Shown in pieces: positions 17,012-38,287 of a DNA stretch of 64,000 nt. Source of the DNA: Thermolongibacillus altinsuensis (lineage in GTDB: Bacteria > Bacillota > Bacilli > Bacillales > Anoxybacillaceae); assembly GCF_004341205.1 (NCBI RefSeq), contig NZ_SLUL01000003.1, forward strand, positions 62,001-126,000, given 5' to 3'. Within the stretch, counting starts at the first letter, position 1. Every line of letters begins with the position of its first letter. The translations under genes and the position numbers were made by a program. Under the pieces are notes generated by a model that worked only from the letters and a program-made list of their open reading frames with translations, had not been told where the DNA came from and made no database searches.

Positions 17012-17047
17012 AGTGACAGAATATTTTATGAGATGGTGGGGGCTCGT

Positions 17048-17764
17048 ATGGGAAAAAACGTGTTAGTTGTGGATGATGAACAGTCCATTGTGACATTGTT
17101 GGAGTACAATTTGAAGCAGGCTGGTTTCACCGTCATGACTGCGAATGATGGAGAAGAAGGGTTCTATATGGCGGTTCATCATCAGCCAGATTTAATCATT
17201 CTTGATTTAATGTTGCCGAAGTTGGACGGAATCGAAGTTTGTAAACAATTGCGGCAACAAAAAATTACGACCCCGATTTTAATGCTTACGGCGAAAGATG
17301 ATGAATTTGATAAAGTGCTTGGTTTGGAGCTTGGCGCAGATGATTATATGACCAAACCGTTTAGTCCGCGTGAAGTTGTAGCAAGAGTCAAAGCGATTTT
17401 GCGTCGTACGAAAATGTACGAAAAAGAAGGAAAGGAAGAAAACGAAACAGATTCACTTGTGGTTGGTCAATTAAAAATATTTCCTGACCGTTATGAAGCT
17501 TATTTTCTTGATGAACGGCTCGAATTAACTCCGAAAGAATTTGAACTTCTTGCTTATTTAGCAAAGTATAAAGGAAGGGTGTTAACGCGCGACCAGTTGT
17601 TGAGCGCAGTATGGAATTACGATTTTGTTGGGGATACTCGCATCGTAGATGTTCACATTAGCCATTTGCGTGAGAAAATTGAAAAAGATACGAAAAAGCC
17701 GGTTTATATTAAAACGATCCGCGGGTTAGGTTATAAGCTTGAGGAGCCAAAAGGCGATGAATAA
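17048..17764 (+). CDS. phoP: Phosphate response regulator PhoP
   Basis: OmpR/PhoB-type response regulator, 238 aa, partner of PhoR in the phosphate-starvation response. The ATG at 17048 follows GGTGGGGG and gives MGKNVLVVDDEQSIVTLL. The receiver domain (1-120) contains the phospho-acceptor Asp53 in IILDLMLPKLDG and the conserved Lys in ADDYMTKPF. The C-terminal winged helix (about 135-235) has LTPKEFELLAYLAKYKGRV and GDTRIVDVHISHLREKIE. The last 8 bp overlap phoR, so the pair is translationally coupled. Tandem PhoP-box-like repeats lie just after phoR, suggesting a local target of this regulator. Confidence 0.96.
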   Translation: MGKNVLVVDDEQSIVTLLEYNLKQAGFTVMTANDGEEGFYMAVHHQPDLIILDLMLPKLDGIEVCKQLRQQKITTPILMLTAKDDEFDKVLGLELGADDYMTKPFSPREVVARVKAILRRTKMYEKEGKEENETDSLVVGQLKIFPDRYEAYFLDERLELTPKEFELLAYLAKYKGRVLTRDQLLSAVWNYDFVGDTRIVDVHISHLREKIEKDTKKPVYIKTIRGLGYKLEEPKGDE

Positions 17765-19520
17765 ATTTCGCTCACGCCTTCTTTTTGGGCTTGTTTCTAT
17801 TATTGTTTCTGTGCTTATTGGACTCGGGCTATTGCTAGGGCAGTTATTTAAAAATTTTTATATGGATACCTTTAATGAACGTGTTGAAAAAGAGGCCAAG
17901 CTTCTTGCCTTGTATATGGAGAGTCAATCTTTAGAAAACGAAGCGTTTCAACAGCAACTTGACACGATTAGCGATACGCTATCAGCTCGCGTGATCATTT
18001 TGAATGATGAAGGAACGATCTTGTTTGACACACGGAAGCATGTTTCGATTGATGATGACGATCATGAAAAAATGTTAAAAGCGCTATTGAAAAAAGAGGA
18101 TGATCGTTCATTCATGGTCGAAGAAGAGCATGAGGTGTATTATTATTCCGTTCCTTTTTTTCAAGAAGGAAAAAAAGCAGGAAGAATTGTGTTAAGTTTG
18201 CCGGTATATTCGATTCAAAAAGTACATGAGCAAATTTGGATGTTATTAATTAGCAGTTTAGGAACTGCATTTATGATCATTCTTTTTCTAGGCATTAAAA
18301 TCACGAATCAATATACAAAGCCGATTGAAGAAGCGACGAAAGTAGCGATGGAATTAGCGAAAGGAAATTATAAGGCACGGACGTATGAACATCATTTAGA
18401 TGAAACAGGGATGCTTAGTCAATCGTTGAATGTATTAGCGAAAAACTTGCAAGATATGGTTAGAACCCAAGAGATGCAGCAAGATCGTTTGCGAACGTTA
18501 ATTGAAAACATGGGAAGCGGGCTTATTTTGATTGATCAGCGCGGGTACATTAACCTTGTCAATCGAGCGTATAAAGAGATTTTCCATATCAATCCATCCG
18601 ATTATTTAAATCGATTATATTATGAAGCGTTTGAACATAAAGAAATCATTGATCTTGTTGAAGAAATTTTTATGACGGAAGTAAAAGTAAGAAAGCAAAT
18701 GCTTCTTCCGATCGATATTGAACGAAAGCATTTTGAGGTGTACGGTGCGCCGATCATTGGCACCAATCATGAGTGGAAGGGGATTATCCTCGTTTTTCAT
18801 GATATTACCGAATTGAAAAAATTAGAGCAAATGCGCAAAGACTTTGTCGCGAATGTTTCGCATGAATTGAAAACGCCGATCACATCGATTAAAGGCTTTG
18901 CAGAAACATTGCTAGATGGTGCAATGAAAGATGAACAAGCACTTGAATATTTTCTTTCCATTATTTTGAAAGAAAGTGAACGGCTGCAAAATTTAATTCA
19001 AGATTTGCTCGACCTATCCAAAATTGAGCAACAAGGATTTAAATTAAATATTTCGGTTGTTAATTTGACGGAAGTGTTGCAAGAAGTAATCGTCATGCTC
19101 GAAGCGAAGGCGAACGATAAAGAAATTAAGCTTGAGTTAGAGGCAGAGCAAAAGTTGTTTTATATGTACGGAGATTTAAACCGCTTAAAACAAATTTTTA
19201 TTAATTTAATTAACAATGCCATTGCTTATACACCAAAAGGCGGAGAAGTAAAAGTAAAGGTTGAAAGCAGGGATGACGAGGTTCTTGTTCACGTTCAAGA
19301 TACAGGAATCGGAATTGACCAAAAAGAAATTCCGCGCATTTTTGAACGTTTTTATCGCGTCGATAAAGCGCGAAGTCGAAACTCTGGCGGAACAGGATTA
19401 GGTTTGGCGATTGTAAAACATTTAGTCGAAGCGCATCATGGGTATATTTCTGTAAAAAGTAAAGTAGGAAGCGGGACAACCTTTACGGTTCATTTCCAAA
19501 AAGATGCGTTTCAATCATAG
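17757..19520 (+). CDS. phoR: Phosphate sensor histidine kinase PhoR
   Basis: Membrane sensor kinase, 587 aa (579 in B. subtilis). The ATG at 17757 overlaps the phoP stop and follows GAGGAG. Order: transmembrane helix (about 9-30, LLFGLVSIIVSVLIGLGLLL), extracytoplasmic PAS-like region (30-160), second helix (WMLLISSLGTAFMIILFLGI), HAMP linker, cytoplasmic PAS (240-350), then the HisKA domain with His369 in FVANVSHELKTPITS. The HATPase domain has NLINNAIAYTPKGGE (N box) and DTGIGI and GGTGLGLAIVKH (G boxes). All catalytic boxes are intact. It phosphorylates PhoP under phosphate limitation. Confidence 0.96.
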   Translation: MNKFRSRLLFGLVSIIVSVLIGLGLLLGQLFKNFYMDTFNERVEKEAKLLALYMESQSLENEAFQQQLDTISDTLSARVIILNDEGTILFDTRKHVSIDDDDHEKMLKALLKKEDDRSFMVEEEHEVYYYSVPFFQEGKKAGRIVLSLPVYSIQKVHEQIWMLLISSLGTAFMIILFLGIKITNQYTKPIEEATKVAMELAKGNYKARTYEHHLDETGMLSQSLNVLAKNLQDMVRTQEMQQDRLRTLIENMGSGLILIDQRGYINLVNRAYKEIFHINPSDYLNRLYYEAFEHKEIIDLVEEIFMTEVKVRKQMLLPIDIERKHFEVYGAPIIGTNHEWKGIILVFHDITELKKLEQMRKDFVANVSHELKTPITSIKGFAETLLDGAMKDEQALEYFLSIILKESERLQNLIQDLLDLSKIEQQGFKLNISVVNLTEVLQEVIVMLEAKANDKEIKLELEAEQKLFYMYGDLNRLKQIFINLINNAIAYTPKGGEVKVKVESRDDEVLVHVQDTGIGIDQKEIPRIFERFYRVDKARSRNSGGTGLGLAIVKHLVEAHHGYISVKSKVGSGTTFTVHFQKDAFQS

Positions 19521-19521
19521 T

Positions 19522-19560
19522 TTTACAATACGTTTACAGACATTTTACTGTCTATTAATA
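19522..19560 (+). promoter_or_regulatory. Four tandem PhoP-box repeats
   Basis: TTTACA (19522), TTTACA (19533), TTTACT (19544) and TTAATA (19555) recur with an exact 11-bp period. The first three fit the PhoP repeat TT(A/T/C)A(C/T)A in five or six positions. A -10-like CATAAT (19573-19578) lies 12 bp downstream, placing the boxes at about -25 to -63, the usual position for PhoP activation in B. subtilis. Confidence 0.7.
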
Positions 19561-19584
19561 AAATTTTGGTAGCATAATGGTTGA

Positions 19585-19647
19585 AAACCCCTTCATCCAA
19601 GGAGCCAATCCTGGAAAGGCGAGAACAACGTTTGTTCTCGTCTTTTT
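19585..19647 (+). ncRNA. Predicted PhoP-activated small RNA or polA leader
   Basis: A transcript starting about 7 bp after the -10 at 19573-19578 would run roughly 60 nt to the intrinsic terminator at 19620-19647. It could fold into an internal hairpin (AGGA 19600-19603 with TCCT 19609-19612, flanked by CC/GG and CCTT/AAGG pairs) followed by the terminator stem. No ribosome binding site or convincing reading frame lies within it. It could instead be the leader of polA with an attenuator. Confidence 0.4.
19620..19647 (+). terminator. Terminator between phoR and polA
   Basis: CGAGAACAA (19620-19628), loop CGT, TTGTTCTCG (19632-19640), then T-rich sequence. It ends phoPR transcription and any transcript from the PhoP-box promoter. 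Confidence 0.88.
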
Positions 19648-19707
19648 TCTTTTTCTGCCTTGATCATGTTAAAATAGAAACAACAGAGAATGAGGGAGGT
19701 TTTTGTG

Positions 19708-22335
19708 TTGCATAAGAAGTTAGTGCTGATTGACGGCAACAGCATTGCTTATCGCGCGTTTTTTGCGCTGCCGTTATTAAATAATGAAAAAGGCATTCAT
19801 ACAAATGCGATTTACGGTTTTACGATGATGTTAATGAAAATTTTAGAAGAAGAAAAACCGACGCATTTACTTGTCGCATTTGACGCGGGAAAAACGACAT
19901 TTCGTCATGAAGTGTTCGATGACTATAAAGGGGGGCGGCAAAAAACACCGCCTGAATTATCGGAGCAGCTTCCGTTTTTACGCGAGTTATTAGATGCCTA
20001 TCAAATTCGTTCGTATGAGTTAGAAAACTATGAAGCGGATGATATCATCGGCACGCTTGCCGCTCAAGCAGAAAAAGAAGGGTTCGATGTGATCGTTATT
20101 TCGGGGGACCGTGATTTAACTCAGTTAGCTTCGGAAAAAGTAAAAGTTCATATTACGAAAAAAGGGATTACAGACATTGAATGTTATACGCCTGAATTGG
20201 TATTTGAAAAATACGGTCTTACTCCTGAGCAAATTGTTGATTTAAAAGGGTTGATGGGCGATAGCTCGGATAACATTCCAGGAGTGCCGGGGATCGGGGA
20301 AAAGACGGCGTTAAAGCTGTTGAAAGAATTTCACACGGTTGAAAATGTTTTGCGTTCCATTGAGCAAATCAAAGGAAAAAAATTAAAAGAAAATCTTGAA
20401 CAATATCGTGAGCAGGCATTGATGAGCAAACAACTTGCGACCATTTCTCGCAATGCGCCGCTGACGATTACGTTAGACGACTTAGAATGGAAAGAATACG
20501 ATGTGAATAAAGTCGCTGCGCTATTTAAAGAACTAGGATTTGCTTCTTTGATGGACAAATTGGGGAAAATCGAGAAGGAAGAAAAGCCATTAAACGAAAT
20601 TACATACACAACCGTTACTGAAGTAACAGATGATATGCTGACAAATGATTGCGCCCTTGTTGTTGAGGTGATCGAAAGCAATTATCATCAAGCTCCGATT
20701 GTTGGTTTTGCGATCGTCAATGAAAAAGGAAACTTCTTTATTCCTACCGATGTAGCAATGAAATCCGCTGCGTTTAAACAGTGGCTTGAAGACGAGGAAT
20801 GCCGAAAAAGTGTATTTGATGCCAAAAGAGCGATTGTGTCATTGAAGTGGCAAGGAATCAACCTAAAGGGAATTGATTTTGATTTGTTGCTTGCTTCTTA
20901 CTTGATTAATCCATCAGAATCAACCGATGATGTTGCTTCCGTTGCGAAAACAAAACAATATACGGATGTACAAAGCGATGAAGCGATTTATGGAAAAGGA
21001 GCGAAGCAAGCGGTTCCGAGTGAAGAGGTGCTAGCCGAACATCTTGTTCGAAAAGCGAAAGCGATTGCTTCATTGAAGGAGACGTTTATTAACGAATTGA
21101 AGAGCAATGAGCAGTACGAATTGTTCACTAATTTAGAGCTTCCGCTAACGTTTATTTTAGCGGAGATGGAATTCAATGGTGTAAGTGTGGATGTAGCCCG
21201 TTTACAGGCGATGGGCGAAGAGTTTACAGAGCAGCTAAAGCAAATTGAACAGGAAATTTATGAACTGGCAGGAACGGAGTTTAATATTAATTCCCCAAAA
21301 CAATTGGGGGTCATTTTATTTGAAAAATTGCAACTTCCGGTGATTAAAAAGACTAAGACAGGCTATTCTACTTCCGCCGATGTGTTAGAAAAATTAGCCG
21401 ATCAGCACGAAATCATCGGGAAAATTTTGCATTATCGCCAACTCGGAAAATTGCAATCTACGTATATTGAAGGATTGATCAAAGTCATTCGCCCGGATAC
21501 CGGAAAAGTGCATACCATCTTTAACCAAGCATTAACGCAAACAGGACGGTTAAGTTCAACCGAACCTAACTTGCAAAACATTCCGATTCGTTTAGAGGAA
21601 GGAAGAAAAATTCGCCAAGCGTTTATTCCATCAGAACCAAATTGGGTTATTTTTGCGGCCGATTATTCGCAAATTGAATTGCGCGTTTTAGCGCATATTG
21701 CTAATGATGAAAATTTAATTGAGGCATTTAAGCAAGATTTAGATATTCATACAAAAACGGCGATGGATATTTTCCATGTCCGCCAAGAAGAAGTGACATC
21801 AAACATGCGCCGCCAAGCAAAAGCGGTGAATTTCGGCATTGTGTACGGCATTAGCGATTATGGATTGTCCCAAAATTTAGGGATTACAAGAAAAGAGGCC
21901 GCGCAATTTATCGAACGTTATTTTCAAAGCTATCCTGGCGTAAAACAGTACATGGAGGACATCGTCCAAGAGGCGAAACAAAAAGGATATGTGACAACAT
22001 TGTTGCACCGCCGACGCTACCTTCCAGACATTACGAGCAAAAATTTTAATTTGCGCAGCTTTGCGGAACGAACAGCGATGAATACACCGATTCAAGGAAG
22101 CGCGGCTGACATCATTAAAAAAGCGATGATTGATCTTGCGAATCGCCTTAAAAAAGAACGGTTAAAGGCGCGGATTTTGTTGCAAGTGCATGACGAATTA
22201 ATTTTAGAAGCGCCGCAAGAAGAAGTTGAAAAGTTGAAGGAAATTGTTCCAGAAGTGATGGAGCATGCGATTGAATTAAAAGTTCCGTTAAAAGTCGATT
22301 ATCATTTTGGACCTACATGGTATGACGCAAAATAA
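19708..22335 (+). CDS. polA: DNA polymerase I
   Basis: DNA polymerase I, about 875 aa, for Okazaki-fragment processing and repair. I prefer the TTG at 19708, 8 bp after GGGAGG; a GTG at 19705 is equally readable. Order: 5'-nuclease domain (1-290) with LLVAFDAGKTTFRHE, YEADDIIGTLAAQAE and GVPGIGEKTA; a proofreading-domain remnant (295-470); and the polymerase domain with GRLSSTEPNLQNIP, AADYSQIELRVLAHI, RRQAKAVNFGIVYG and LLQVHDELILEAP. The exonuclease segment reads LVVEVIES, lacking the D-x-E metal ligands, as in Geobacillus stearothermophilus Pol I, so proofreading is probably absent. It is followed by mutM after 14 bp. Confidence 0.96.
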   Translation: MHKKLVLIDGNSIAYRAFFALPLLNNEKGIHTNAIYGFTMMLMKILEEEKPTHLLVAFDAGKTTFRHEVFDDYKGGRQKTPPELSEQLPFLRELLDAYQIRSYELENYEADDIIGTLAAQAEKEGFDVIVISGDRDLTQLASEKVKVHITKKGITDIECYTPELVFEKYGLTPEQIVDLKGLMGDSSDNIPGVPGIGEKTALKLLKEFHTVENVLRSIEQIKGKKLKENLEQYREQALMSKQLATISRNAPLTITLDDLEWKEYDVNKVAALFKELGFASLMDKLGKIEKEEKPLNEITYTTVTEVTDDMLTNDCALVVEVIESNYHQAPIVGFAIVNEKGNFFIPTDVAMKSAAFKQWLEDEECRKSVFDAKRAIVSLKWQGINLKGIDFDLLLASYLINPSESTDDVASVAKTKQYTDVQSDEAIYGKGAKQAVPSEEVLAEHLVRKAKAIASLKETFINELKSNEQYELFTNLELPLTFILAEMEFNGVSVDVARLQAMGEEFTEQLKQIEQEIYELAGTEFNINSPKQLGVILFEKLQLPVIKKTKTGYSTSADVLEKLADQHEIIGKILHYRQLGKLQSTYIEGLIKVIRPDTGKVHTIFNQALTQTGRLSSTEPNLQNIPIRLEEGRKIRQAFIPSEPNWVIFAADYSQIELRVLAHIANDENLIEAFKQDLDIHTKTAMDIFHVRQEEVTSNMRRQAKAVNFGIVYGISDYGLSQNLGITRKEAAQFIERYFQSYPGVKQYMEDIVQEAKQKGYVTTLLHRRRYLPDITSKNFNLRSFAERTAMNTPIQGSAADIIKKAMIDLANRLKKERLKARILLQVHDELILEAPQEEVEKLKEIVPEVMEHAIELKVPLKVDYHFGPTWYDAK

Positions 22336-33265: not shown

Positions 33266-33430
33266 AAGGTGAAATCAAATACTTGTTTGTGGAACAAGCA
33301 GAAGCACCCGCTTCTCACCTGATTGACGCCATCGGCAGTCGACAGGTTTTACGATGCAAAACGGCGAATCGCTTTTTAGTCGCTTGATTCGTAAAGTGTG
33401 GGTGTGGTATGCACTCACACTTTTTTTGTT
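33266..33430 (+). ncRNA. Ribosomal-protein L20-type autoregulatory leader of infC
   Basis: The leader before infC folds into a closing stem AGGTGA (33267-33272) with TCACCT (33315-33320) that encloses two hairpins (33282-33287 with 33293-33298; 33300-33305 with 33310-33315). It then reaches an intrinsic terminator at 33393-33428. Position and layout match the L20 leader that attenuates infC-rpmI-rplT in B. subtilis when L20 is in excess. Confidence 0.75.
33393..33428 (+). terminator. Attenuator terminator in the infC leader
   Basis: A 12-bp stem (33393-33404 with 33412-33423, one G-T pair), 7-nt loop, then a T run. It lies 70 bp before infC, inside the transcribed leader. Confidence 0.88.
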
Positions 33431-33497
33431 GTCGAGTGCTCTCTGCAAGTCGCTACAAGCAAGAAATGTGTTCAAAAAACCGTGGAGGTGGCTAGTT

Positions 33498-38016: not shown

Positions 38017-38287
38017 ATAGTTAAATAAGGGAAAAAACGATGAAAGAGAAGAGTAGCTTGCCACTCGCCATCCAGGGAGAAAACGCCATAGACTGAGAGC
38101 GTTTTTATGGTAGAAGCAAGTGAATTCACCTCTGGAGTTGACACTTGGACCATTCTGCGTCCGCAGAATGTAAAGGTGTTCCGGTCTACGCCGTTATCGC
38201 AATGAAGTGAACAGCGCCTTTTTGCGCTGTTAATAAGGGTGGTACCGCGATTTCACTCGTCCCTTGCTTGAGGGGCGAGTTTTTTAT
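38017..38287 (+). ncRNA. T-box leader, phenylalanine-specific
   Basis: The leader ends with the T-box core AGGGTGGTACCGCG (38236-38249), followed by a terminator. A plausible specifier TTC (38125-38127), a phenylalanine codon, is followed by A. It fills the 333-bp gap before pheS and should couple pheST expression to uncharged tRNA-Phe. Confidence 0.93.
38255..38287 (+). terminator. T-box terminator of pheST
   Basis: ACTCGTCCC (38255-38263) pairs with GGGGCGAGT (38272-38280), then a T run. The stem is nearly identical to the thrS T-box terminator. Confidence 0.9.

Follow-up and report, generated by a model that had tools for sequence, protein, structure and literature searches.

PhoPR ranks among the textbook two-component systems. 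PhoP-activated promoters of the B. subtilis type carry hexamers 5 bp apart at about -20 to -60, the classical activator position. To our knowledge, no PhoP-controlled small RNA (sRNA) has been described for Bacillus; none appeared in the open-access literature searched, though an earlier description, for instance as an S-segment of the B. subtilis transcriptome atlas, may exist. Several described systems nonetheless bear on such an RNA. FsrA is the Fur-controlled iron-sparing sRNA of B. subtilis; OmrA and OmrB of E. coli are activated by a response regulator, depend on Hfq, and pair with and repress ompR-envZ; and the icaR mRNA of S. aureus has a C-rich 3' end complementary to its own leader (5'-3' UTR pairing). 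C-rich sRNAs of Firmicutes are mostly repressive, and RoxS shields the 5' end of the yflS mRNA from RNase J1. Closest in position are the boxes of B. subtilis itself that PhoP~P binds between the phoR stop codon and the operon terminator and that, with PhoP~P bound, augment phoPR autoregulation by a mechanism as yet unknown—so at least the passage devoted to them in a 2018 review (PMC6232261, citing Salzberg 2015).

A comparable arrangement is found in Thermolongibacillus altinsuensis. In the window (the whole 64,000-nt stretch of DNA that was analysed), phoP (17048-17764, +; response regulator of the PhoB/OmpR type, Pfam Response_reg and Trans_reg_C) is followed by the sensor kinase gene phoR (17739-19520, +; HisKA, HATPase_c, PAS, HAMP, and sCache_like), and the encoded PhoP, close to the B. 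subtilis PhoP receiver 1MVO, is the ortholog of B. subtilis PhoP. The first of four PhoP boxes (19522-19560, +) lies 2 bp past the phoR stop codon, and the hexamers follow each other in 11-bp steps: TTTACA (19522-19527), TTTACA (19533-19538), TTTACT (19544-19549), and TTAATA (19555-19560). This regular array, first pointed out in a sequence-only reading of the window, was borne out well above chance: it matches TT(A/C/T)A(C/T)A hexamers at 11-bp steps in 23 of 24 positions, it is the sole site scoring at least 22 on either strand of the window, and neither 20,000 dinucleotide shuffles of the surrounding 171 bp nor shuffles of the whole window ever produced that score. The same reading had taken CATAAT as the -10; this hexamer does exist (19573-19578), but the -10 that is conserved in an alignment of about 150 homologous promoters is instead an extended one 3 bp further upstream, TGGTAGCAT (19567-19575, +; TG-N-TA-N-N-(A)-T), with its TG at 19567-19568 and TAGCAT at 19570-19575. 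Transcription would thus start at about 19583 (a G) and yield an RNA of about 65 nt, and the boxes fall at about -61 to -23 relative to this predicted start, i.e., with the spacing and position of a PhoP-activated promoter. From this arrangement we infer that PhoP binds the boxes in T. altinsuensis and that transcription from this promoter depends on it.

Genome-wide, four-box arrays with 11-bp steps and at most two mismatches occur in three places only: the 3' end of phoR, the promoter of pstS, which encodes a PstS-like phosphate-binding protein (Pfam PBP_like_2), and, with the array in reverse orientation, the promoter of an operon in which a DUF47 gene precedes that of a PiT-type transporter (DUF47-pit; L464/L519, contig C12 near 19542-19669). 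The array at DUF47-pit suggests that the low-affinity phosphate transporter, too, may be under direct PhoP control.

The predicted sRNA (19583-19647, +) would consist of a seed domain, GAAAACCCCUUCAUCCAAGG (19583-19602, +), a small central hairpin, CCAAGGA-GCCAA-UCCUGGA (19597-19615, +), and an intrinsic terminator (19613-19648, +). The terminator, which the sequence-only reading had placed some 60 nt past the start, is indeed present (19613-19647; z = -4.1, the downstream RNA folding far better than its shuffles); it is probably shared with the phoPR operon, and relatives without the sRNA keep it. While core and terminator are conserved across the order, the degree of conservation differs along the element: among homologous loci the 5' core is near-invariant, whereas the following hairpin (not universal; the own family has it, as do some others), its length, and the terminator sequence all vary, which argues that the core is conserved as a base-pairing seed and not for its structure. 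The C-rich 5' end is largely single-stranded, and this unpaired segment is complementary to mRNA leader or ribosome sites: its 5' half to the ribosome site of DUF47-pit and, in other families, its 3' half to the phoP leader. The features of a promoter, a short RNA, and an intrinsic terminator are present at the level of sequence, and the aligned cores share no conserved start codon. Two other candidate functions were set aside, as neither a CsrA-type AAGGA motif nor a small ORF within the element is conserved among these cores. No Rfam family, RoxS/RsaE included, matches the window element or the eight other loci carrying it that were searched. Elsewhere in the window, Rfam recognizes a T-box leader (38031-38267; RF00230, 121.5 bits) and an L20 ribosomal protein leader (33290-33432; RF00558).

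Among relatives, one and the same combination recurs 3' of phoR: boxes with 11-bp phasing, the extended -10, the 5' core, and the terminator. With a covariance model built from 17 sequences, 180 of 299 Bacillales genomes have a match at E<=0.01, the weakest of these matches including chance matches to terminators, and outside Bacillales no genome matches it better than about 4e-4. The weak matches without phoR (L091-L093, L096, and L097) were discarded as chance matches of this kind. phoR is present in 59 of the 64 loci of the element that were examined, and 69 of 80 named matches to an IUPAC pattern of the core lie directly 3' of phoR, in Halobacillus, Rossellomorea, Cytobacillus, Priestia, Mesobacillus, Sutcliffiella, Metabacillus, Peribacillus, Anoxybacillus, and others. 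The boxes accompany the core: a score of at least 21/24 at 11-bp steps is found in 143 of 185 distinct core loci, compared with 0-1 at other steps from 8 to 15. In the B. subtilis group, whose genomes were recognized by a PhoP receiver up to 98% identical to that of PDB 1MVO, the element lies directly after phoR, which is exactly the place of the PhoP~P boxes reported in the review. Within the own family, genera g1, g3, g5, g8, and g9 have the element between phoR and polA, and g2, g4, g6, and g7 have lost it, with the terminator retained in those loci that were read out. Loci L020-L027 and L023 (g2, g6, and g7) thereby form a natural deletion series in which sRNA and PhoP boxes are lost and a phoR terminator of the same type is kept. 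In Bacillus litorisediminis, a group II intron fragment lies upstream of the phoPR locus (L112 124-193). Conservation on this scale strongly supports the identification of the region as a PhoP-type promoter for a short RNA 3' of phoR that is kept across Bacillales, i.e., the first of two possibilities, a PhoP-driven short RNA, that had been proposed for it.

In the own family, pit is the best-supported predicted target and offers the sole convincing pairing. Specifically, the predicted pairing of the DUF47-pit ribosome site of the own genome, GAUGGGGGUUUUCAUAUG, with GAAAACCCC-uu-CAUC has an energy of -19.5 kcal/mol (P ~0.004), and every sRNA-bearing member of the family with this gene retains the site GGGGUUUU. 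Family f9 (G044) has it too, f29 (G064) and f38 (G073) have variants that pair, and f22 lacks it, though f22 has the sRNA. Families without the sRNA mostly lack the pit site. Of the genera that lost the sRNA, g6, g7, and part of g2 still carry GGGGUUUUC, and g4 no longer has it. In genus g3, which has the sRNA, no DUF47-pit gene was found.

In most other Bacillales families, the seed is also complementary to the mRNA of the element's own operon. There, the phoP leader has the form UUGGAUGA(A)-n-GGGG, complementary to CCCC-UUCAUCCAA. In 31 of 51 loci, the stretch of the own phoPR mRNA that pairs best with the sRNA's 5' end lies no more than 100 nt upstream of the phoP start (binomial p ~3e-30 on the assumption of independent loci, which is only partly justified). 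When the stretch from -80 to -13 of phoP was compared with shuffled leaders, sRNA-bearing loci of other families averaged -15.7 versus -8.8 kcal/mol for the shuffles, with 49 of 92 loci (close relatives included) at P<=0.01, while genomes without the sRNA did not differ from their shuffles (mean -8.9 versus -8.9 kcal/mol) and none of 18 reached P<=0.01. Relative to the phoP start codon, the site has a median position of -41 to -25, which places it upstream of the ribosome site; many of these sites begin 5-10 nt past a TATAAT, i.e., near the likely mRNA 5' end. Matching changes in seed and leader were seen in several genomes (CAUCU/AGAUG in G045 and G039, CAUCCG/CGGAUG in G208, UAUCC/GGAUA in G153), but G073 clearly runs against this, the seed of the Halobacillus type, CCCUUUCAUC, is a weak partner for its own phoP leader, and across all 26 loci with variant seeds the own seed pairs better than the consensus in 14 and worse in 10. 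In G111, where no sRNA was detected, the phoP leader (L517) nonetheless resembles the pairing site (GATGTAAGGGG); a divergent sRNA may have been overlooked in this genome. In the own family, leader pairing is absent (mean -6.6), so that the autoregulatory part of the model set out below may not hold in T. altinsuensis; a possible weak pairing site over the phoP ribosome site, GAUGGUGGGGG (17032-17042, +; dG ~-15.7), is not conserved in the family.

These patterns make it probable, in our judgement, that a PhoP~P-activated promoter directs a trans-acting sRNA of about 65 nt which ends at the phoPR terminator and pairs with the pit and phoP mRNAs. Under phosphate starvation, PhoP~P would occupy the four boxes, transcription would begin near 19583, and the exposed 5' end of the RNA would base-pair with mRNAs. 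The 5' half, GAAAACCCC, would mask the DUF47-pit ribosome site and so repress the low-affinity phosphate transporter while Pst takes over. In most other Bacillales families the second half, UUCAUCCAA with CCCC, would bind the phoP leader a short way upstream of the ribosome site and, most likely, stabilize or activate the phoPR mRNA, as RoxS does for yflS. What the analysis shows is sequence, conservation, and complementarity; the direction of both effects is what we infer, and for the leader we favor stabilization or activation because the 3' boxes of B. subtilis are reported to augment autoregulation. The broader model, that across Bacillales an sRNA from the phoPR 3' end combines positive feedback via the phoPR leader with a switch at pit, and is thereby the unexplained mechanism of the 3' boxes, is put forward tentatively and with somewhat less than even confidence.

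The sign of the feedback could also be the reverse. If the sRNA, pairing upstream of the phoP ribosome site, blocked translation, it would damp autoregulation much as OmrA/OmrB act on ompR; the site at its median position is within reach of an initiating ribosome, and repression is the usual mode of C-rich Firmicute sRNAs. We consider this unlikely, if far from negligible, given that PhoP~P at the 3' boxes of B. subtilis, as the passage in the review has it, augments and does not lower phoPR autoregulation. With the leader site occupied, predicted accessibility of the ribosome site rises in 28 of 61 leaders and falls in 17 of 61, a split that fits either sign.

Nor need the seed belong to a separate RNA. 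Sitting as it does between phoR and the terminator, it could be carried by the 3' UTR of the phoPR mRNA and pair with that mRNA's own 5' leader, tying the two ends together, with PhoP binding modulating this 5'-3' pairing in an icaR-like manner; the leader pairing does involve the mRNA of the same operon. Such a purely cis arrangement appears improbable, as the conserved extended -10 at a fixed distance from the core, together with boxes at the activator position, argues for a separate start, and as pairing with pit requires a trans RNA. Cis and trans action of the seed may, however, coexist. A reading in which the boxes act as DNA only, for example by looping or as a roadblock affecting phoPR transcription, with a functionless RNA, would fit the effect of 3'-end PhoP~P binding on phoPR expression that the review passage describes and leaves unexplained; it is very improbable in our view, for it accounts neither for a near-invariant transcribed core of 20 nt nor for the complementarity of that core to phoP leaders.

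Finally, the second possibility raised by the sequence-only reading, a polA leader in which the promoter drives polA and the terminator sets read-through by attenuation, is scarcely credible and largely refuted: polA is the next gene in the window, read-through RNA is predicted to fold onto its ribosome site, and this site pairs best with the seed among 30 ribosome sites in the window, but in most element-bearing genomes polA is not adjacent (usually at least 2 kb away, as in G040 with >2 kb, or not found nearby), which indicates that the element is not a polA leader, insertions on both sides part the intact element of G025 (L022, contig C3 159952-160846) from phoR and polA alike, and polA pairing is limited to g1 and g3.

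As a target of the trans-acting sRNA, polA is at best a weak lead for these two genera, and its ribosome site was rejected as a general one; the possible site in the window, AUGAGGGAGGUUUU (19690-19703, +), is a seed complement with one bulge, with a similar pairing only in g3. The likely polA start is the TTG at 19708 and not the ATG at 19690. Further candidates fared no better. The hbd ribosome site is not conserved, and that of spoIIIAE offers 11 bp in the own genome and g3 and is not conserved elsewhere; the spoIIIAD-spoIIIAE junction (L305/L432, own genome; g3) reads GATGAAGGGGT, an 11-nt seed complement confined to g1 and g3. Outside the sRNA gene itself, sequences complementary to the core over its full length (GGATGAAGGGGTTTT, at most one mismatch) lay, where inspected, in or across coding sequence, such as a lipL-like gene of g3, or near no ORF, and no ribosome site among them is conserved. 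A plain search for the SD pattern (GATGAAGGGG before ATG) was uninformative because it is inflated by Shine-Dalgarno sites.

Set beside the known systems, the predicted sRNA resembles RoxS/RsaE of B. subtilis and S. aureus, likewise a short, C-rich Firmicute trans sRNA that is activated by a two-component regulator and acts by pairing with the ribosome sites or 5' ends of mRNAs. Yet the element beside phoR differs from it in sequence (as the lack of an Rfam match indicates), points to a different regulator through its PhoP boxes, and sits at the end of the regulator's own operon. With FsrA it would share the logic of a nutrient-limitation sRNA expected to lower systems that are unneeded in the shortage, though FsrA is unrelated in sequence and under Fur control. 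OmrA/OmrB provide the precedent for a response-regulator-activated sRNA that pairs with its regulator's mRNA; they do not, however, arise from the operon's 3' end, and they require Hfq and repress, whereas for the phoR-side sRNA we think activation more likely. The icaR mRNA has no separate promoter for its C-rich 3' end, while the seed described here has a dedicated one with PhoP boxes. If the predicted effects hold, i.e., if the phoPR mRNA is stabilized and the low-affinity pump shut, one sRNA would join signal amplification to transporter exchange. The 3' boxes of B. subtilis phoPR, going by the review passage (PMC6232261), occupy the same position in the orthologous operon, and since genomes of the B. 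subtilis group carry the element there, a PhoP-controlled sRNA with two named targets is predicted for that group as well, offering a testable answer to why PhoP sites stand at the far end of the phoPR operon.
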